Below are positions 53,003 through 62,751 of a stretch of DNA of 64,000 nt, piece by piece. The stretch is from Flavobacterium frigoris. Its GTDB lineage: Bacteria > Bacteroidota > Bacteroidia > Flavobacteriales > Flavobacteriaceae. The notes beneath the pieces are model-generated. The model had not been told where the DNA came from and ran no database searches. It saw nothing but the letters and a program-made list of their open reading frames with translations. The stretch is taken from positions 1 to 64,000 of the forward strand of contig NZ_FOFZ01000018.1 in the NCBI RefSeq assembly GCF_900111075.1. Reading direction: 5' to 3'. Position 1 is the first letter of the stretch, and every line of letters starts with the position of its first letter. The translations under genes and the position numbers were made by a program.

Positions 53003-53046
53003 TTTTTTAATTTCTCCCTTTAGGGTTGGGGGAAAAAATTAAAAAA
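53003..53046. repeat. hairpin with CCCTTTAGGG core and TTTTTTAATTT stem
   Basis: TTTTTTAATTT (53003-53013) pairs perfectly with AAATTAAAAAA (53036-53046) around TCCCTTTAGGG. The same element occurs at 58008-58052. In the arrays at 31 and 62 kb the same core has a different closing stem. Confidence 0.85.
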
Positions 53047-53089
53047 TACCCAAAATACCCATCCCTTTTCCCTATTTTAATTTCTCCCA

Positions 53090-53383
53090 GTCATTACGAA
53101 GAATGAAGCAATCTGGTTCAGGTAAAAAATAACGAAATCGCAATCGATTCCTGCCCCGCCCTTAAATTAAAAACGTTAAAAAACAATGAAAAAACGGAGT
53201 GGCAGCAGTCCGCAAGTTGAGCCTGAAAGGCGAACGGCTCGGGCTGCGGAACAGAGTTTTGAGGTAGTTTTTGAGTTTTTAATTTTCAGGCTTGATTTTT
53301 TTGTTACTTTTTTCATCAAGGAAAAAAGTAAAATAGTAATTCAAAAAACAATATGCAATCGCAAGTGAAGCACCCATTCGTTT
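53090..53383. repeat. composite structured repeat, copy A1
   Basis: Order: a GTCATTACGAAGAATGAAGC segment, CCTGCCCCGCCCTTAAATTA, a bulged hairpin (GCAGTCC 53205-53211 pairing with GGGCTGC 53241-53247, then GAGCC/GGCTC), a TTTTCAGGC segment, a second hairpin (TTACTTTTTT, CATCAAGG loop, AAAAAAGTAA) and CGCAAGTGAAGCACCC. Copy B at 57708-58000 is about 90 percent alike by eye. Confidence 0.9.
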
Positions 53384-53404
53384 CCCCTTTTTTAATTTCT
53401 CCCA

Positions 53405-53620
53405 GTCATTGCAAAAAATGATGCAATCTGGTGGGACAAAAAATAACATGATCGGAATCGATTCCTGCCCCGCCCTTAAATTAAAAACGAAAAAAAACAA
53501 CGAAAAAACATTTGAAATTAAAAGGAGGACAGCCAATGGCTGTCAGGTAAAAAGCAGTTTTCAAGCTTTTGATTTTCAGGCTTGATTTTTTGTTGTGCCA
53601 TCGGGTTGCACATCGTATTA
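53405..53620. repeat. composite structured repeat, copy A2 (alternate hairpin)
   Basis: It has the same start (GTCATTGCAAAAAATG) and CCGCCCTTAAATTAAAAACG core as A1, at a 315-bp offset. In place of the bulged hairpin it carries GACAGCCA-A-TGGCTGTC (53528-53544). The TTTCAGGCTTGATTTTTTG tail then resumes. Confidence 0.85.
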
Positions 53621-53800
53621 ACAAACCTTCCGGTACAATGCCGTTGTAATATGAAAACAGTATTCCGAATTCCTTCGGAATACTGAATTGAATACACAAA
53701 CGGTATTTCTTTTGTATCAAGACAAAAGAAAAATATAATTATCATTCCTTATCGGAAGTAATAAATTCAAAAGAACCACAAAAAATCAACTGCCCTAAAC

Positions 53801-53840
53801 AAAAAAAGCTCACAAAGATAAATCCTTGTGAGCTTTTTTT
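53801..53840. terminator. bidirectional terminator after PglF-like gene
   Basis: AAAAAAAGCTCACAA (53801-53815) pairs perfectly with TTGTGAGCTTTTTTT (53826-53840). T runs on both strands make it a terminator in either direction. It lies 20 bases past the stop at 53860. Confidence 0.92.
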
Positions 53841-53859
53841 AATCAAACTTAATTAGTTC

Positions 53860-55830
53860 CTATTTCACATCCAACAATTCAAAAGTAGAATTCATACTTT
53901 TAAATTCCGGTACGATCTTCTTCATTTTCATTACAATTTCATCATTCCCTAAAAAATCTGCATTATCGATTAAAGATTCAATATCAGCATGCAAAGATTC
54001 AAATTCGTCTTGAATTTCCTCTGCAATCATTATTTTTTCGTGATGCGTAAGAATCGTCTTGGAGGTATCATTAAGCAATTCTTCGTACAACTTCTCCCCA
54101 GGTCTTAAACCGACAATTTGGATTTTTATCTCTTTATCCGGCACGTATCCCGCCAACTTAATCATCTTTCTCGCCAAATCAATAATTTTAACCGGTTTCC
54201 CCATATCAAAAATATAAATTTCACCCCCTTTACCCATCGCACCCGCCTCAAGAACCAGCTGGCAAGCTTCTGGAATAGTCATGAAATACCTTATAATATC
54301 CGGATGGGTAATCGTAATCGGTCCTCCTTCGGCAATTTGCTTAGTAAACAGCGGCACTACAGACCCATTTGAACCCAAAACATTACCAAAACGGGTAGTA
54401 ATAAATTTAGTCGTCTTTTCCCCTACTTTTCGCTCCGTTTTTAATGATAAGGACTGCACATATTTCTCTGAAATACGCTTACTTGCACCCATTACATTAC
54501 TAGGATTGACGGCTTTGTCTGTAGAAATCATTACAAATTTCCTAACCTTGTACAGGCAGGATAAATCGGCAAGGTTTTTAGTCCCGCCAATATTGGTAAG
54601 AATCGCTTGAGAAGGATTTTCTTCCATTAAGGGCACATGCTTGTAAGCTGCCGCATGGAAAACTACTTGGGGTCTATAAAGTCGAAAAACCCTATCCATT
54701 GCCTCTCTATTTCTAATATCCCCTACAACCGTCCTAATTTTGGAATTCGTAGGCAGCACTTCAGTCTCTAATCTCAAATGATGCAATGGCGTTTCAGCTT
54801 GATCCAGGATAATAATCTTTTTAGGATTATAAAGCAATACCTGCCTTACAATTTCGCTCCCGATAGAACCTGCTGCACCTGTAATTAAAATGGTATTATC
54901 TTTTAATTGTTTCGAAATGGATTTATTATCCAAAACAATTGGCTTTCTTTCCAGAAGATCCTCAATTTGTATCGTTTTTACTTTTTGCGAGATCTCCTTT
55001 TGATTTTCCCAGTCCGTAATCAAGGGAATAATGTACACCTTATAATTAAACTCTAAGCATTGATCTACAATGACTAATCGTTCTTCTTTTGACAAACTTT
55101 TATCGGCGATAATAACGCCTTCAGCCCCAATGGAACGCATGAGAGTAGGTAGTTTCTTCTTTAAAATCAAAATAGGTAAATCCAACATCCGCTTAGATGA
55201 GTTTTGATCATTCTTATCTACAAACGCCACAATTTTAAAACGAGGAGGAGACTCTAACTTTAAAGCATTAGCAACTGATATCGCATTGGCATCTGTTCCA
55301 TAAATTATTGTTCTCGATAATTTTATGTCGCTTTTTTCTGAAAAATAATATTCGAAAGTCTGTTTTACAATCACACGATACATAAACAGCCCACAAAAAG
55401 AAAGAACCATATTAATAAAAAGCGCGGTATTTAAAAAGGCCTTATACCCATAGAATAATTCAAAAGCAAAGTTTAATAGCAAGAGTATTATTAAAACAGC
55501 CATTTGTGAAAACAACAACTTAACAGCATCGATATAAGAAGAGTGCCTTATAATTCCAGAATAGGTTCTAAACAACCAAAAAAAGAATATATTAACCCCA
55601 AACAGAAAACTAAGATACAATGCCGTATGTGTAGTCACAATATAATCTAGTCCTGTACCTCTAAACAGCAGATAGGTAAAAAAAAAGGCCACCATTAAAA
55701 CGGCGCAATCCATCATAACGATAATCCATCTAGGCAGATAACTTAGATTATGAATATTAAACCTTAGATTCTCCCGAGAAAAAAAATTCTTGAGAATAGG
55801 TGTCGAATCGGGATTTGCATGATTACTCAA
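53860..55830 (-). CDS. membrane-bound UDP-HexNAc 4,6-dehydratase, PglF/WbpM/CapD family
   Basis: A 656-residue protein. Four N-terminal membrane helices (about 35-150), a first nucleotide-binding fold (about 170-290) and a C-terminal SDR dehydratase are seen: GAAGSIGS (318-325), STDKA (436-440) and the modified catalytic M447-x3-K451 (MGASK) typical of the retaining PglF group. It starts with TTG at 55830; no suitable ATG is in frame nearby. With the aminotransferase next door it probably makes UDP-4-amino-4,6-dideoxy-GlcNAc. Confidence 0.93.
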   Translation of the reverse strand: MSNHANPDSTPILKNFFSRENLRFNIHNLSYLPRWIIVMMDCAVLMVAFFFTYLLFRGTGLDYIVTTHTALYLSFLFGVNIFFFWLFRTYSGIIRHSSYIDAVKLLFSQMAVLIILLLLNFAFELFYGYKAFLNTALFINMVLSFCGLFMYRVIVKQTFEYYFSEKSDIKLSRTIIYGTDANAISVANALKLESPPRFKIVAFVDKNDQNSSKRMLDLPILILKKKLPTLMRSIGAEGVIIADKSLSKEERLVIVDQCLEFNYKVYIIPLITDWENQKEISQKVKTIQIEDLLERKPIVLDNKSISKQLKDNTILITGAAGSIGSEIVRQVLLYNPKKIIILDQAETPLHHLRLETEVLPTNSKIRTVVGDIRNREAMDRVFRLYRPQVVFHAAAYKHVPLMEENPSQAILTNIGGTKNLADLSCLYKVRKFVMISTDKAVNPSNVMGASKRISEKYVQSLSLKTERKVGEKTTKFITTRFGNVLGSNGSVVPLFTKQIAEGGPITITHPDIIRYFMTIPEACQLVLEAGAMGKGGEIYIFDMGKPVKIIDLARKMIKLAGYVPDKEIKIQIVGLRPGEKLYEELLNDTSKTILTHHEKIMIAEEIQDEFESLHADIESLIDNADFLGNDEIVMKMKKIVPEFKSMNSTFELLDVK

Positions 55831-55935
55831 AATATATATATTTAGACAATGTCAAAATTACTACTAATTGCATTCAAATAAAATTTTTTTATTCCTTTTT
55901 CTTTGCCCAACGGCAGAAAGGCCTATTCACTCTTT

Positions 55936-57075
55936 TTACGCGCTGAACAAATTGAAAACCACCGCTTTTATCCTACTTCGATCCTCTTCTGTAAGATTAG
56001 AACCAGATGGCAAACAAAGTCCATTGGCAAAAAGGGTCTCAGCAATAGCGTTACCATAATAAGGAAAATCGCGAAAAACAGGCTGCAAATGCATCGGCTT
56101 CCATAACGGACGTGATTCTACATTTGCTTTCTCTAGTGCTAATCGCATTGCTTCCCTAGTAATTCCAAGTGTCTTTTTAGGATCTATCAAAACGGTACTT
56201 AACCAATAATTTGAAAAGAAATGGTCATTGGGTACGGTAAAAACCGTTACCCCCGCAATATCCTTGAATACACCCACATAAAATTCATGCATTTCCCTTC
56301 TTAAAATTACATGAGCATCCAAAACTTCCATTTGACCTCGACCAATTCCTGCACAAATGTTACTCATTCGATAATTATATCCAATTTCGGTATGCTCAAA
56401 ATGCGGTGTCTCTTCTCTTGCTTGCGTCGCTAAAAATATAGCCCTCTGTTTTAACACTGCAGAATTAGCTACAATCGCTCCTCCACCCGACGTCGTTATC
56501 ACCTTCCCTCCATTAAAAGATAAAACACTAATATCACCAAAAGTTCCGCATTTTTGTCCTTTATAACAACTACCCAATGCCTCTGCGCTATCTTCAAGAA
56601 TAGGAATCCCATAGCGTTCAGCAATCGCTCGTATCGCCTCGATCTTATAAGGAGTACCATACAAATCGACCGCTATTATCACTTTTGGAATTTTGCCTTT
56701 AGCAATTCTATCTACAATGGCTGCTTCAAGTGCAACGGGGCACAAATTCCAAGTTTCAGGTTCGCTATCAATAAAAACAGGCGTTGCCCCCAAATATAAA
56801 ATTGGATTGGCAGAGGCCGAAAAGGTCATGCTTTGACAAAGCACCTCATCCCCTGACTCCACCCCCAAAAGAATTAATCCCAAATGAATCGCCGCCGTCC
56901 CCGAATTTAAAACGGCAACATTTCCCAACCCCAAATAGTTTTCTAAATTTTGTTCGAAAACAGTCAAATTTAGTCCTATTGGAGCAATCCAATTAGAATC
57001 AAAAGCCTCTTGAATATACTTCTGTTCAGTGCCACCCATGTGGGGAGTCGAAAGCCAAATTTTGTTCTCAGCCAT
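55936..57075 (-). CDS. PLP-dependent sugar aminotransferase (DegT/DnrJ/EryC1), PglE-like
   Basis: A 379-residue fold-type I aminotransferase of nucleotide sugars. NSGTAAIHLGL, ILEDSAEALGS and the PLP lysine K191 in LSFNGGKVITTSGGG are visible. The start IWLSTPHMGGTEQKYIQEAF and length resemble PglE/PseC-type transaminases. It lies 105 bp upstream of the PglF-like gene, and a UDP-4-keto-6-deoxy-GlcNAc substrate is inferred from that neighbour. dTDP-4-keto-6-deoxyglucose from rfbB is an alternative substrate. Confidence 0.92.
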   Translation of the reverse strand: MAENKIWLSTPHMGGTEQKYIQEAFDSNWIAPIGLNLTVFEQNLENYLGLGNVAVLNSGTAAIHLGLILLGVESGDEVLCQSMTFSASANPILYLGATPVFIDSEPETWNLCPVALEAAIVDRIAKGKIPKVIIAVDLYGTPYKIEAIRAIAERYGIPILEDSAEALGSCYKGQKCGTFGDISVLSFNGGKVITTSGGGAIVANSAVLKQRAIFLATQAREETPHFEHTEIGYNYRMSNICAGIGRGQMEVLDAHVILRREMHEFYVGVFKDIAGVTVFTVPNDHFFSNYWLSTVLIDPKKTLGITREAMRLALEKANVESRPLWKPMHLQPVFRDFPYYGNAIAETLFANGLCLPSGSNLTEEDRSRIKAVVFNLFSA

Positions 57076-57249
57076 TTCTTAAAAATTAATACTTATGGAG
57101 TCTAACCTAGGCTAAAATAATATATATTTTGCACTTTGTGAGTGCAATGCTTTTAAAGCTTCAATAACTATTCTTTTATTTCATAACAATTACCATGAAG
57201 TCCTGTCGATAATCTTATGCCCCTTAGAGTCAAAACTTCACTATTAAAT

Positions 57250-57320
57250 CCGCCCTTAAATTTAAACCCTCAAGAAATATCAGAAATTAAAAGGAAGATA
57301 GCCATTGGCTGTCAGGTAAA
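57250..57320. repeat. composite repeat fragment, copy D
   Basis: It shares CCGCCCTTAAATTTAAA and AGAAATTAAAAGGAAGATAG with copy A2, and carries GATAGCCA-T-TGGCTGTC (57297-57313). Relative to A2 one pair is changed from C-G to T-G, keeping the hairpin. The downstream tail is missing. Confidence 0.7.
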
Positions 57321-57707
57321 TAAAGAACACATTTTTAATCATTAAATCCCGATAGCTATCGGGATCAGGCAGTAAAATCGGAGATTATTTCATCTGTTCG
57401 CCTTTCAGGCTCGGGTCATGAATACAAAAAAAACAATATTAACCCATGAATAATTTTTTGTTACCGTCACCCTGAGCGAAGACCAACGGTTCATCAAGAT
57501 AAATCAAAGATTCAGCGAGTACCGCTAAAAATAAAAAAGTAATGAGCTAAAAAAGTAAAATATAATTATCATTCCACTTAATAAACTTCTACTGGAAATT
57601 AAAAAAAACAGAGGTTTAGCCCCAACCCTAAAGGGAGCCCTGTGATTTTTTTAAAGAAAGATAACTCGTTAAAAAACAATAACTTTTCCCTTTTTTAATT
57701 TCACCTC

Positions 57708-58000
57708 GTCATTGCGAAGAATGAAGCAATCTGGTTCAGGTAAAAAATAACGTGATCGGAATCGATTCCTGCCCCGCCCTTAAATTAAAAACGTCGAAAA
57801 ACAACGAAAAAACAAAGTGGCAGCGCTCCGCGAGTTGAGCCTGAAAGGCGAACGGCTCGGGGCGCGGAACGGCGTTTTTGAGGTAGTTTTTGAGTTTTTA
57901 ATTTTCAGGCAGTGATTTTTTTGTTACTTTTTTCATCAAGGAAAAAAGTAAAATAGTAATTCAAAAAAAAATATGCAATCGCAAGTGAAGTACCCATTCG
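57708..58000. repeat. composite structured repeat, copy B
   Basis: Same order as copy A1. The bulged hairpin is GCGCTCC (57823-57829) pairing with GGGGCGC (57859-57865), enclosing GAGCC/GGCTC. Two base pairs differ from A1 and C with both partners changed. The second hairpin with loop CATCAAGG is also present. Confidence 0.9.
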
Positions 58001-58007
58001 TTTCCCC

Positions 58008-58052
58008 TTTTTTAATTTCTCCCTTTAGGGTTTGGGGAAAAAAATTAAAAAA
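58008..58052. repeat. hairpin with CCCTTTAGGG core, second TTTTTTAATTT copy
   Basis: TTTTTTAATTT (58008-58018) pairs with AAATTAAAAAA (58042-58052) around CCCTTTAGGG (58021-58030). It differs from the copy at 53003 by one inserted base in the 3' side of the loop. Confidence 0.85.
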
Positions 58053-58127
58053 TCCAACTCCACAACCACAAAAACACCAACAGGCAAAGCGATACCGCTT
58101 AAATATAAAGTTAAGCGAGCTAAAGAA

Positions 58128-59087
58128 TTAAGCCCTACTTTCTTTAAGACTCAACTGACGAACAATAAAAACCCGAACAGCTAAATAAACAAGAGTCATT
58201 AACACTAAAAATCCTCCTGCAAAGTACAGTGACAAGCTTCCTTTTGTATCCACATAAATGATAATGATGTTTATCCCTAACTGAAGAATCGCATAAGAAA
58301 TCGAAACTGCAACATGAGAATATCCCATTTCATTGGCTAAATACTGATATAAATGAGAGCGATGTGGTTGAAAAATATTTTCTTTCTTTAACAACCTGTT
58401 GATAATAGTAATAATGGCATCGATACCATAAACAGAAAAGAAAAGAATATATCCTAATTGTCCTGAATCTATAATTGACTTGATCATAAAATAGCCCAAG
58501 AAAAGCGCCATACTAATACTTCCTACATCGCCAGCAAAAGTCTTCGCTTTTTTCCGAACATTAAATAGTCCAAAAACCACACAAGACAATGCCATGGTGA
58601 TCAGTACTGGTAAGCTTGCTTCATTTAAAGGCAAGTAAGCAAAAGTTATAATCGCAGTGAGCGCATACAATACCGTTATACCGTTGATCCCATCCATAAA
58701 GTTAAAAGCATTCACCCAACCAATCAGCAAGACAAAGACTATTGGAAGCAACCATAAAGCCTCTGAATACAGATTCAAATTATAGAATACTAAGCCGACG
58801 GCAATAACATGTGATGCAAATCGAGGCAATTGCGACAGAGGTTTGATGTCATCTATAAAACTGACTAAACCGACTAATACTACTGCTAATGTAAGCTCCC
58901 AAGAAATATCACCAAGAAAAAAAGCAATTAGTATTGCAATTGGAAAAATAATCCCCCCGCCTCTCAACGTAATCGATGTATGAGAGGACCTACTATTCGG
59001 TTTATCAATTATATTGTATTTATCAGCTATTTTGAAATAAATAAGCTCAATACCAATCAATAAAAAAAATAACGCTATATATATCAT
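58128..59087 (-). CDS. undecaprenyl-phosphate sugar-1-phosphate transferase, WecA/MraY superfamily
   Basis: A 319-residue protein with about ten membrane helices. DKPNSRSSHT and RGGGIIFP at the N-terminus, FIDDIKPLS (Asp-rich metal site), WVNAFNFMDGINGIT and AGDVGS are the conserved cytosolic blocks of this family. It is a candidate initiating enzyme, distinct from the WcaJ-like one at 21318-22712. The donor is probably a UDP-HexNAc by family. Confidence 0.92.
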   Translation of the reverse strand: MIYIALFFLLIGIELIYFKIADKYNIIDKPNSRSSHTSITLRGGGIIFPIAILIAFFLGDISWELTLAVVLVGLVSFIDDIKPLSQLPRFASHVIAVGLVFYNLNLYSEALWLLPIVFVLLIGWVNAFNFMDGINGITVLYALTAIITFAYLPLNEASLPVLITMALSCVVFGLFNVRKKAKTFAGDVGSISMALFLGYFMIKSIIDSGQLGYILFFSVYGIDAIITIINRLLKKENIFQPHRSHLYQYLANEMGYSHVAVSISYAILQLGINIIIIYVDTKGSLSLYFAGGFLVLMTLVYLAVRVFIVRQLSLKESRA

Positions 59088-59226
59088 TTATTTACAACAA
59101 TCTAGGCTATTAAAAAATAGCGTTTAATATAAAAATCAGATTCCAATTCAGACATTACCGGATAAGAAAGAATACTCATCTCTGACGACTGATCACCGAA
59201 CACTGCATATGATCACTGACCACTTA

Positions 59227-60093
59227 TTATTTGTGTTTCAATAAACCTAAAAGATATTCTCCATAACCTGATTTTTTCAAAGGATCAGCTAATTCTTTTA
59301 GTTGTTCGCTACTGATAAACCCTTGTCTCCAAGCAATTTCTTCAATACAACCCACTTTCAATCCTTGACGTTCTTCCAAAACTTGAACAAACTGTCCCGC
59401 TTGCATCAAACTATTAAATGTCCCTGTATCTAGCCAAGCCGTTCCTCTACTCAAAATCCCTACTTTCAGCTTTCCTTGCTCTAAATACACTTTGTTTACA
59501 TCGGTTATTTCATATTCACCGCGAGGACTTGGTTTAATATTCTTCGCAATTTCAACTACGGAGTTATCATAAAAATACAATCCTGGCACTGCATAATTCG
59601 ATTTAGGTTCCAAAGGCTTTTCTTCGATAGAAAGTGCTTTCAGGTCTTTATCAAATTCTACTACTCCATAACGCTCTGGATCGGATACATGGTAAGCAAA
59701 TACAACGCCTCCTTGTGGTTTTGTATTCGAACGAAGTAATTCTTGCATATTAGAACCAAAGAAGATGTTATCTCCCAAAACTAAGGCAACGTCATCATTT
59801 CCTATAAATTCTTCCCCTATTACAAAAGCCTGCGCCAAACCATTTGGAATCGCTTGCTCAGCATAACTGAATTTACACCCAATAGTAGAACCATCTCCCA
59901 ATAACTTTTTAAAATTAGGTAAATCGTGTGGGGTCGAAATAATCAAAATTTCATTAATCCCAGCCATCATCAAAGTAGACAATGGGTAATAAATCATCGG
60001 CTTATCATAAACCGGCATCATTTGCTTACTCATCGCAAGCGTTAACGGGTGTAAACGGGTGCCAGAACCTCCAGCCAATATAATTCCTTTCAT
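59227..60093 (-). CDS. rfbA: glucose-1-phosphate thymidylyltransferase
   Basis: A 288-residue nucleotidyltransferase making dTDP-glucose from dTTP and glucose-1-phosphate. [20 protein letters not shown] (6-25), VLGDNIFFG and [14 protein letters not shown] are intact. It provides the substrate for rfbB, 605 bp upstream in transcription order. rfbC and rfbD are not in the window, so the final sugar need not be rhamnose. Confidence 0.96.
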
Positions 60094-60697
60094 AATTGTG
60101 TTAATTTTACGGATTAAAACGAATGTTTCGAATTTAAAACGAATTACTTCAAATTGATTATTCTCTTATAAGTTAATGAAGGCGTGCCGAAATTAATCAA
60201 CATACCCAATTCTAATTTAGTACATTTTAAATAATTTGTCAACTTAATACAAAACAATCTTTTATGCTTAAATTAATTGCTTTTTTTATTTTTTCAAAGG
60301 ATCTCTTTACCTCATACTTCTCGATACAATTTTATAAAAACGCTCGAAGTGACGGAAACCGAAAACTCAAATCTCACCACTCCTAACCCCGCCCTTAAAT
60401 TAAAAACGTCAAAAAACAATGACAAAGTAAAGTGGCAGCAGTCCGCGAGTTGAGCCTAAAAGGCGAACGGCTCGGGCTGCGAAACGGCACTTTGAGGTAG
60501 TTTTTAAGTTTTGAATTTTCAGGCTTGATCTTTTGTTTCTTTTGCATCAAGGCAAATCGAAGATTCAGCGAACACCACTAACAAAAAAAGTACAGTGAGC
60601 TAAAAGAAAATTAGCAAACCCTTAATTTCTAACGTTGAATATAACCTCCTTGGTTGAATCCATTAATGAACTTCGGATAATTCGCTTTAAATTCGAG
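60094..60697. other. gene-free spacer with composite repeat copy C
   Basis: Between rfbA and rfbB. The left half is plain AT-rich DNA with no recognisable signal. The right half carries composite copy C (60385-60560) followed by an A-rich phrase GATTCAGCGAACACC, related to GATTCAGCGAGTACC at 57511. No ORF is believed. Confidence 0.6.
60385..60560. repeat. composite structured repeat, copy C
   Basis: It starts at CCCGCCCTTAAATTAAAAAC, lacking the GTCATTGCG module. The bulged hairpin is GCAGTCC (60438-60444) with GGGCTGC (60474-60480) and GAGCC/GGCTC; the loop has one change (TAAAAGGCG). The second hairpin keeps the CATCAAGG loop with a shorter stem (TTTTG / CAAA). Confidence 0.85.
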
Positions 60698-61829: not shown

Positions 61830-62470
61830 CTTTATGGCTAGGGAAAAGTAAATGATTCCCTAAAATATTCTCGCTCCAAAAATCAGATGACTCCCTTTAG
61901 CCCCGGGGAAAACATCTGGTTTTTCGAACACACCCCAATTTTCGGCTCCCTTTAACGCCAGGGAAAAACGAAAATTTCCACACACCCCAATTTTGGCTCC
62001 CTTTATGGCTAGGGAAAAGTAAATGATTCCCTAAAATATTCTCGCTCCAAAAATCAGATGGCTCCCTTTAGGGCCGGGGAAAACATATGGTTTTTCGAAC
62101 ACACCCAATTTTCGGCTCCCTTTAGGGCCGGGGAAAAACGAAAATTCCCACACACCCAATTTTCGGCTCCCTTTAGGGTCGGGGAAAAACGAAAATTCCC
62201 ACACACCCAATTTTCGGCTCCCTTTAGGGTCGGGGAAAAACGAAAATTTCCACACACCCAATTTTCGGCTCCCTTTAGGGTCGGGGAAAAACGAAAATTT
62301 CCACACACCCTCCAATTTTCGGCTCCCTTTAGGGCTAGGGAAAAGTAAATGATTCCCTAAAATATTCTCGCTCCAAAAATCAGATGGCTCCCTTTAGGGC
62401 CGGGGAAAACATATGGTTTTTCGAACACACCCAATTTTCGGCTCCCTTTAGGGCAAGGGGAAAAACGAAA
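61830..62470. repeat. dense CCCTTTAGGG hairpin array
   Basis: At least nine units with ATTTTCG...CCCTTTAGGG...CGAAAAT. From 62064 the cores start at 62064, 62118, 62169, 62220, 62271 and 62325 (spacings 54, 51, 51, 51, 54). The core hairpin equals that of the array at 31.1-32.06 kb; the linkers differ. Confidence 0.92.
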
Positions 62471-62563
62471 ATTTCCACATTTCAAGTCTTTTCGTTCCCC
62501 TTAATAACGAAAGCTTTCAGTAGAGTTAACACTAAAACACATCTTAGATAAGTTTCTTTTTTG
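62339..62563. repeat. long direct repeat flanking higBA, left copy
   Basis: This starts at GGAAAAGTAAATGATTCCC and ends AGTTTCTTTTTTG. It matches 63778-64000 with a few substitutions and small indels; the similarity also extends leftward through hairpin units. The two copies are about 1.44 kb apart and enclose higA and higB. Confidence 0.9.
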
Positions 62564-62599
62564 TTTGCCCCAAGCCCTAAAGGGGGCAAAAAAGAAACT
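62551..62599. repeat. 13-bp-stem hairpin with CCCTAAAGGG core
   Basis: AGTTTCTTTTTTG (62551-62563) pairs perfectly with CAAAAAAGAAACT (62587-62599). Inside, GCCCC pairs with GGGGC around CCCTAAAG. This is a third closing stem around the same core family. Confidence 0.88.
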
Positions 62600-62751
62600 C
62601 AAAATCCGATTCTCAATTTAGTTATCTTTATTCCAAGTCACGCTGCGAACTTCCGCCTCACTTTCGGCTGAGGAAAAACGAAAATTTCCACACACCCAAT
62701 TTTCGGCTCCCTTTAGGGTCGGGGAAAAACGAAAATTTTCACCTCTATCCT

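Follow-up and report, generated by a model that had tools for sequence, protein, structure and literature searches.

An apparently undescribed family of structured interspersed repeats in Flavobacterium frigoris and other Bacteroidota that may act as folded single-stranded DNA

We analysed 64,000 nucleotides (nt) of Flavobacterium frigoris DNA (assembly GCF_900111075.1, contig NZ_FOFZ01000018.1, positions 1 to 64,000 of the forward strand; this whole stretch is called the window), in which a structured repeat element occurs in three full-length copies, all on the plus strand: A1 at 53157..53331, B at 57775..57951 and C at 60390..60609. All three are of type I, which combines a long stem, a GC-rich tip and a 3' hairpin whose loop is complementary to the bases upstream of it. 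A1 starts with CGCCCTTA and ends in the arm of the 3' hairpin, as do the other full-length copies, and in copy C a repeat of about 45 nt (TCGAAGATTCAGCGAACACC...) is nested in the 3' arm of the 3' hairpin. An earlier note on this DNA had described a bulged hairpin at three sites, and re-reading of the coordinates and sequences confirmed its positions and letters. This hairpin lies at 53205..53247 in A1, 57823..57865 in B and 60438..60480 in C, and its outer stem reads GCAGTCC (53205-53211)/GGGCTGC (53241-53247) in A1, GCGCTCC (57823-57829)/GGGGCGC (57859-57865) in B and GCAGTCC (60438-60444)/GGGCTGC (60474-60480) in C. As the note had also stated, outer pairs 3 and 4 are changed on both sides in B relative to A1 and C, while the T-G wobble at pair 5 is retained.

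Mosaic copies adjoin A1 (from 53471) and B (from 57250). The first, A2 (53471..53600, plus strand), keeps the element ends, carries the palindrome GGACAGCCAATGGCTGTC in place of the GC-rich tip and has a degenerate 3' hairpin; the second (57250..57560, plus strand) is heavily mosaic or decayed, with several nested small repeats within. A DNA search of the source genome found four such copies, namely the three in the window and one on contig C33, plus one partial copy; in the genus, 23 places in 8 of 121 genomes matched, the source genome included.

The hairpin drawn in the earlier note proved to be only the tip of an element of about 175 nt. This element is discrete: 67 full-length copies have common ends, with a median length of 175 nt (5th-95th percentile, 171-208 nt). 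The unit begins with CGCCCTTA, one mismatch being allowed, and ends with the last hairpin arm CAAAAGAAA or variants of it; the two ends are not inverted repeats of each other, so that terminal inverted repeats are absent. Among 42 copies, one per locus, the information in the flanks was at most 0.9 bits per position upstream and strong downstream only at the first A (1.6 bits). Type II has its ends in common with type I and differs in stem and tip (ATAGTTTTATCCC...GGGATAAAACTAT; GCAACCC/GGGTTGC), and these two subfamilies are present in about 27 Flavobacterium-type genomes. Type IV, with a unit of about 200 nt, belongs to the genomes of family f5, which we took as Chryseobacterium-like. A conserved peptide was considered and rejected, as the reading frames, examined by eye, break between copies.

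When thinned alignments were folded with RNAalifold, a continuous long stem followed by the 3' hairpin was obtained for both type I (25 thinned of 43 rows, 49 pairs, 96.8% of cells paired) and type II (10 thinned of 15 rows, 58 pairs, 95.3%). The type IV alignment, from which 3 of 23 rows were left out as outliers, gave 47 pairs over the remaining 20 rows, with 98.5% of cells paired and double changes in 17 pairs. G-T cells outnumbered A-C cells in all three types (73:16 in type I, 40:9 in type II and 31:3 in type IV), which points to the plus strand as the folding strand.

The tip was examined for covariation. A first set of 16 distinct cores, taken from 8 genomes, had 99.1% of the outer-stem cells paired. 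The whole structure of the earlier note had 14 double-change cells in these cores, a number reached by none of 500 shuffles, and sliding the partner by 1-3 columns reduced it to 0 or 1; weaker measures were the pair count, reached by 85 of 500 shuffles, and the pair-type count, reached by 33. At pair 4, the 104 distinct cores of a larger set, from which 37 apex matches without element context had been dropped, showed G-C in 55, A-T in 22, C-G in 14, T-G in 5, G-T in 2 and a mismatch in 6. With wobbles allowed, the list of pattern matches contains at least 14 different 7-bp outer stems in which every pair forms. Paired substitutions alter the stem sequence and leave the fold intact.

These changes were then set against a tree-based null, using a custom script in the spirit of R-scape (not R-scape itself). 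The tree was built from 101 of the 104 distinct cores, three misregistered rows being dropped, and each column was simulated alone with its own number of changes in 60 simulations covering 1176 column pairs. The top four column pairs all fall on two helices, the outer stem and an apical GCCT/AGGC hairpin: apical 4 and apical 2 (E 0.00 each), outer 3 (E 0.02) and outer 4 (E 0.95). Ranked fifth, columns 9-37 (E 4.9, not significant alone) extend the outer stem from the 7 bp of the earlier note to 8 bp with G-C, A-T or C-G, and apical 3 is sixth (E 7.4). Covariation thus lies above phylogenetic expectation in this R-scape-like test, which supports the selection on the fold that had been suggested from the paired changes in copy B. 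Of the outcomes that the note had named as refuting, neither a lack of such covariation nor an origin of the differences in a gene-conversion tract alone was borne out. The 5-bp inner stem GAGCC/GGCTC did not survive: it occurs in the three window copies but is not conserved, its 3' side being near-constant while its 5' side varies, and it has zero covariation support (E at least 169), so it was rejected. The loop hairpin (GCCT-GAA-AGGC), previously seen as a competitor of that structure, does exist, but as the conserved, covarying hairpin itself.

The resulting tip has an 8-bp outer stem (53205-53212/53240-53247 in A1, where covariation supports it), a loose internal loop, a T-A or C-G pair (T53218-A53234), GA opposite GA (53219-53220 and 53232-53233) and a 4-bp hairpin (53221-53224/53228-53231) with a GNA loop, GAA in A1. 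The choice between T-A and C-G tracks the subfamily, and by itself this pair does not reach significance (E 32). A GNA loop is present in 92 of 101 cores, and YGAR in 99 and 100 of 101. The commonest single tip variant among the 104 cores (GAGGACGAAGGACGAAC) disrupts the apical hairpin; its bases may find partners elsewhere, or it may have arisen by recombination between the GTCC..GGAC and GGAC..GTCC forms. Taken alone, the 62-nt hairpins have no unusual folding energy (z -0.2 to -0.8 on the plus strand); the evidence for the fold is comparative.

The 3' module of A1 (53291..53331) consists of CTTGAT (53291-53296) and a hairpin with arms 53304-53314/53321-53331, whose loop ATCAAG (53315-53320) is complementary to it. 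The arrangement is general: the loop of the last hairpin complements the bases immediately upstream, in the form CTTGAY...RTCAAG. In the initial loci, the last base of CTTGA(N) and the first base of (N)TCAAG were T-A in 75, C-G in 6 and A-T in 2, with 2 exceptions, and 120 of 163 Flavobacterium copies have CTTGA. A module pattern allowing up to 3 mismatches was then searched in two overlapping genome samples. It matched 45 of 296 Flavobacteriales genomes (16 of 90 genera) and 52 of 395 genomes at the phylum level (26 of 170 genera), and the reversed pattern used as a control matched none among the genomes listed. The module matches often lie in same-strand arrays. In 111 strings from 48 genomes, among the matches listed, the loop and upstream bases were T-A in 68, C-G in 21, A-T in 16, T-G in 2 and other in 4; in the part that the pattern left free (Y by R) there were thus 68 T-A, 21 C-G, 2 T-G and no C-A. 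The adjoining arm pair, with both positions free in the pattern, was T-A in 60, C-G in 28, G-C in 13, T-G in 8 and other in 2. The module pairing therefore covaries across the phylum. By eye, and among the matches listed, a long stem often closes directly before the CTTGA upstream of the module.

The 3' hairpin does not resemble an intrinsic terminator, being AT-rich and followed at 42 loci mostly by A and not by a run of T. In the 3' hairpin and its loop, a small hairpin-like module, AAATCGAAGATTC...GAACACC, has recurring insertion points (window 60557-60601; L043, L083, L114, L233, L234, L243), and a piece of it is present in reverse orientation in the f5 genomes.

When GTDB species genomes were scanned with a pattern, 82 stretches matched; of the 80 listed, 61 were in Flavobacterium or close kin (about 27 genomes), with 19 scattered elsewhere. 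Among 151 distinct pattern matches in Flavobacterium loci, all 7 outer pairs were formed in 125 and 6 in 21; in 24 scattered matches (other groups, one viral, one untitled), 7 pairs were formed in none and 6 in 3. Judged from sequence, the matches outside Flavobacterium and its kin look like chance. Plasmids and phages gave no match, and viral contigs a single chance match. A covariance-model search of 397 genomes found only the source genome, a weak test with at most 14 candidates scored per genome and few members of the genus listed.

Neighbouring genes were named mostly by eye from reading frames. In Flavobacterium, the elements lie in polysaccharide loci, in a cluster of RteC, AraC-TPR, HTH_17 and TPR genes (Pfam domains), upstream of SusC-like genes and in other gaps. 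Orientation was counted after 45 of 151 Flavobacterium apex records had been dropped (5 formed under 6 outer pairs, and 40 lay too close to the end of the locus). Relative to the element, the flanking genes of 61 collapsed gaps were (-,-) in 34, (+,+) in 13, (+,-) in 12 and (-,+) in 2; background gaps of the same loci, taken by locus strand, numbered 69, 68, 20 and 24 in the same order. Copies sit between genes and are rare in divergent promoter gaps (2 of 61, and 1 of 35 at the order level). Mixed strands were found in none of 19 multi-copy loci of up to 8 kb. Integron-like cassettes, which would have attC sites with R/L boxes (RYYYAAC/GTTRRRY) at the ends and an integron integrase, were considered for these arrays because the copies in them share one orientation. 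Within arrays, types I and II alternate with similar spacers, and arrays appear to exchange sequence.

In polysaccharide loci L078, L101 (NCBIfam) and L131 (by eye), element arrays adjoin a gene of the UpxY antiterminator family. A role as UpxY/RfaH target was rejected, since the element is antisense to the genes in most polysaccharide loci examined; it is sense in G045. In one genome (L138, L141, L142, L135), copies lie in the sense direction about 180-330 nt upstream of SusC-like genes, three of them type II and one type I; these genes were named by eye, and that of L135 is short.

At scoB, the loci of 30 out of 78 genomes were examined. The 3' module was detected in 18 and not in another 10; of the other two, L251 showed only heads in the pattern search, and in L255 a remnant was recognised by eye. 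At this orthologous site the copy number ranges from 1 to 7 (7 in L224). Two convergent terminator-like hairpins, identified by eye, flank the elements in 11 of 12 element-bearing loci with sequence examined, and in L257 only the one on the scoB side was seen. Copies persist at orthologous sites while the copy number changes.

The element is thus a discrete unit with a covarying fold and a strand asymmetry, which occurs in arrays and has long resided at its sites. We estimate a probability of about 50% that it represents an undescribed interspersed, non-coding, structured DNA repeat family of Bacteroidota, in which the folded top strand acts as single-stranded DNA in the manner of REPINs (hairpin-forming pairs of repetitive extragenic palindromic, or REP, sequences) or miniature inverted-repeat transposable elements (MITEs). 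The position between terminators (one locus examined closely), the lack of a full consensus promoter and the frequent antisense position favour DNA over RNA, and we infer that the fold works on single-stranded DNA. A GNA loop and YGAR context are favourable in DNA. In the mechanism that we propose, a putative enzyme would recognise the folded top strand in trans and spread copies, slippage or unequal recombination would expand arrays locally, and the loop-complement pairing would serve as a lock completing the folded form. Replication through a folded form, which the earlier note had offered beside selection, fits the strand preference and the between-terminator site at one locus; it is unproven, and the analysis turned up neither a transposase nor a clear target duplication, nor a site that was cleanly empty.

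A stronger version is more doubtful, and we put it forward tentatively: the element would be phylum-wide, would persist and multiply in the form of a single folded strand, closed by a self-complementary lock and having a covarying stem-loop of well over 100 nt in the best-studied types, and would depend on an enzyme that does not belong to the known RAYT/IS200 set (RAYT, REP-associated tyrosine transposase), perhaps an HUH enzyme, a tyrosine recombinase or a reverse transcriptase yet to be linked to it, making it a new minimal mobile element and neither a REP nor a MITE.

Several observations weigh against the single-stranded DNA interpretation. The 5' strand of the lock is CAGTGA, weakly complementary to the loop, in 25 of 163 Flavobacterium copies, and neither form was found in 18; in copy B, CAGTGAT replaces CTTGAT and complementarity to its own loop is only 4 nt. 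In about 25 of the 104 distinct cores the tip reads GGAC...GGAC, so that two apical pairs are lost. The foot helix reached a score of at least 18 at only 27% of 56 wider module sites (4.1% with permuted partners); by this crude measure it is common and not universal, and the 5' part is shorter in some groups. With RNA parameters, individual copies are more stably folded than their dinucleotide shuffles (median z -3.3 and -5.1), but the minus strand does about as well as the plus strand (type I z -4.07 and -3.31), so energy alone does not assign the strand. Orientation is also not tied to replication, as copies lie on opposite strands 10 kb apart in the longer locus L142 and 6 kb apart in G542. 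A replication-coupled insertion bias, an idea based on the same-strand loci and on five of five plus-strand copies within 157-207 kb of contig C1 (3.76 Mb) of G515, was dropped on account of both strands occurring at these distances in L142 and G542 and 66 kb apart in G045.

Signs of mobility were likewise weak. No clear target duplication was seen: words shared by the two flanks of 42 copies had a mean length of 3.55 nt, most of them 3-4 nt, compared with 3.06 +/- 0.22 nt in shuffled pairings, a slight excess that may leave room for a short duplication. No pristine empty site was found at dnaE (L143 compared with L174), mnmE (searched only) or scoB; at dnaE and scoB there was no clean junction because the flanks were too diverged or remnants were present. 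For 34 of 49 copies the nearest relative beyond the copy's own locus belongs to another genome; current mobility therefore looks low, and the copies appear to be mostly old residents. No transposase or recombinase was linked to the element in a search confined to Y1_Tnp, the 3' module lying near only 1 of 31 loci (32 matches, 13 genomes).

The main rival is that the element is a multi-copy structured RNA, its plus strand being transcribed and acting either as a small RNA or, in neighbouring transcripts, as a 3'-end element. We regard this as possible, though distinctly less probable than an action as single-stranded DNA. The fold, the tandem GA motif, the wobbles and the loop-complement pairing suit RNA, the left gene is sense in 25 of 61 collapsed gaps, and the copies upstream of SusC-like genes could be read in the same way. 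The Bacteroidota promoter consensus is TTG...TAnnTTTG. Upstream of the elements, TTG-N16-22-TAnnTTTG was found in 0 of 126 type I/II copies (shuffles 0.6) and 0 of 29 type IV copies, and the -7 box TAnnTTTG alone once, compared with 6.6 in shuffles. Inside the elements the full consensus was again found in 0 of 126; TAnnTTTG without the -33 box is mildly over-represented there (13 of 126 elements, shuffles 7.2), which speaks for RNA and against our preferred reading. Against RNA, the upstream gene is not sense in 36 of the 61 gaps and both flanking genes are antisense in 34, and the scoB arrays lie between two opposed terminator-like hairpins.

Comparison with known families also gave no RNA match. 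With Rfam 15, only tRNAs reached the gathering score in the sources scanned (the window, L016, L018, L028 and 8 wider loci, the types of the element being represented), and no description of the element was found in open-licence papers, in keeping with the earlier statement that no described family was known. The accessible part of a study of F. psychrophilum small RNAs (PMC9723704) describes no such repeat. According to the accessible part of Weinberg (2010; PMC2864571), single-stranded DNA was weighed against RNA for the STAXI motif (RF01728), a repeated pseudoknot; that motif consists of small tandem pseudoknots near ssb and topoisomerase genes of Enterobacteriales, whereas our element matched no Rfam family in the sources scanned. 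The same portion of that paper lists a GUCCY-hairpin candidate for Bacteroidetes and Proteobacteria, whose name recalls GTCC in the element arm.

It is also conceivable, though we think it unlikely, that the element is used by the host as a DNA site at gene 3' ends (a barrier, an insulator or a binding site) and is kept for chromosome function and not by selfish spread. Bacterial interspersed mosaic elements (BIMEs) offer an analogy, being bound by gyrase or integration host factor (IHF). Consistent with such a use, 18 of 35 order-level gaps are convergent and 1 is divergent (background drawn from the same loci), copies persist at orthologous sites with decay in some species, and apparent mobility is low. 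However, the distribution is patchy (8 of 121 genomes of the genus by DNA search), the module is undetected in 10 of 30 scoB loci with only a remnant in one more, and a site bound as duplex does not need strand-specific folding.

Mobilisation of a REP/BIME-type repeat by a RAYT, a Y1 HUH transposase, seems highly improbable. The accessible part of PMC6006769 describes atypical structures flanking the Bacteroidetes genes of tnpA_REP subclass 2.6, further copies of which occur elsewhere in the genome, and the element might be one of these structures; it is likewise structured, intergenic and strand-specific, and a small repeat with GAGCCTGAAAG lies inside a Y1_Tnp gene (L010). The likeness was judged by description only, and the element was not seen beside Y1_Tnp genes in the loci examined, apart from the single locus mentioned above; by eye, the flanks of 14 intact Y1 genes among the matches listed carry other palindromes. 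REP, BIME and REPIN sequences (GTAG- and CGTC-tagged) resemble the element in being intergenic and structured, with many copies, arrays and strand-specific hairpins, but they are tagged palindromes of 20-40 nt, whereas the element is about 175-200 nt long, starts without a GTAG or CGTC tag, has the loop-complement 3' module and has no linked RAYT that we could find. Long imperfect palindromes of the enterobacterial repetitive intergenic consensus (ERIC) type, and MITEs, are further systems for comparison. They too are long imperfect hairpins between genes with no coding capacity seen; unlike them, the element has ends that are not inverted repeats, a 3' module outside the long stem and a strand preference.

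That the paired changes are a mutational by-product of quasi-palindrome correction or gene conversion and not of selection is scarcely credible: template switching can make inverted repeats match and arrays appear to exchange sequence, but the T-G wobble at outer pair 5, which correction would remove, is kept in 73 of 104 cores, the 3' module covaries across 48 genomes of the phylum, and tip covariation exceeds the tree-based null.

Other small repeats were noticed around the elements. A repeat CGTCATTGCGAAGAATGAAGCAATC and degenerate copies of it lie just 5' of elements (window 53089-53113, 53404-53428, 57707-57731). According to the accessible part of PMC3733652, palindromic repeats fall into GTAG and CGTC superfamilies, and CGTCATTGCGAAGAATGAAGCAATC looks like the CGTC-tagged type described there, which the element itself does not. 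A second nested small repeat, the palindrome GGAGGACTGCCAGTGGCAGTCAGGTA with its variants, occurs at window positions 53524-53549 and 57293-57318 and in L012, L020, L030 and L114, inside elements on either flank of the tip and sometimes in place of it. A Y1_Tnp gene of the source genome (L010, 1606-1635 and 1716-1745) contains two inverted copies, each of about 30 nt, of ACCCGAGCCTGAAAGTGCGAA, which has GAGCCTGAAAG in common with the element tip; the related Y1_Tnp gene in L009 lacks them. REP insertions inside subclass 2.4 genes are reported in the accessible part of PMC6006769. Elsewhere in the window, an array of units of about 51 nt (GGCTCCCTTTAGGG...), open in several frames, lies at 61924-62735, with related single units at 53014 and 57620, and two tRNA genes on the minus strand (230-303 and 466-539) have identical scores and starts 236 nt apart.

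Interspersed repeats are usually judged by their sequence. Here a long fold is maintained as the sequence drifts, and many genera have a short locking hairpin in common, so copies with different stems would escape the usual repeat-finding programs. Should the fold act in single-stranded DNA, it would point to an enzyme acting in many Bacteroidota; if it works in RNA, it would represent a large unlisted RNA class. The arrays, whose copy number changes at one orthologous site, provide a ready test system, and they bring mosaic repeats into surface-polysaccharide loci, in which gene exchange is important.

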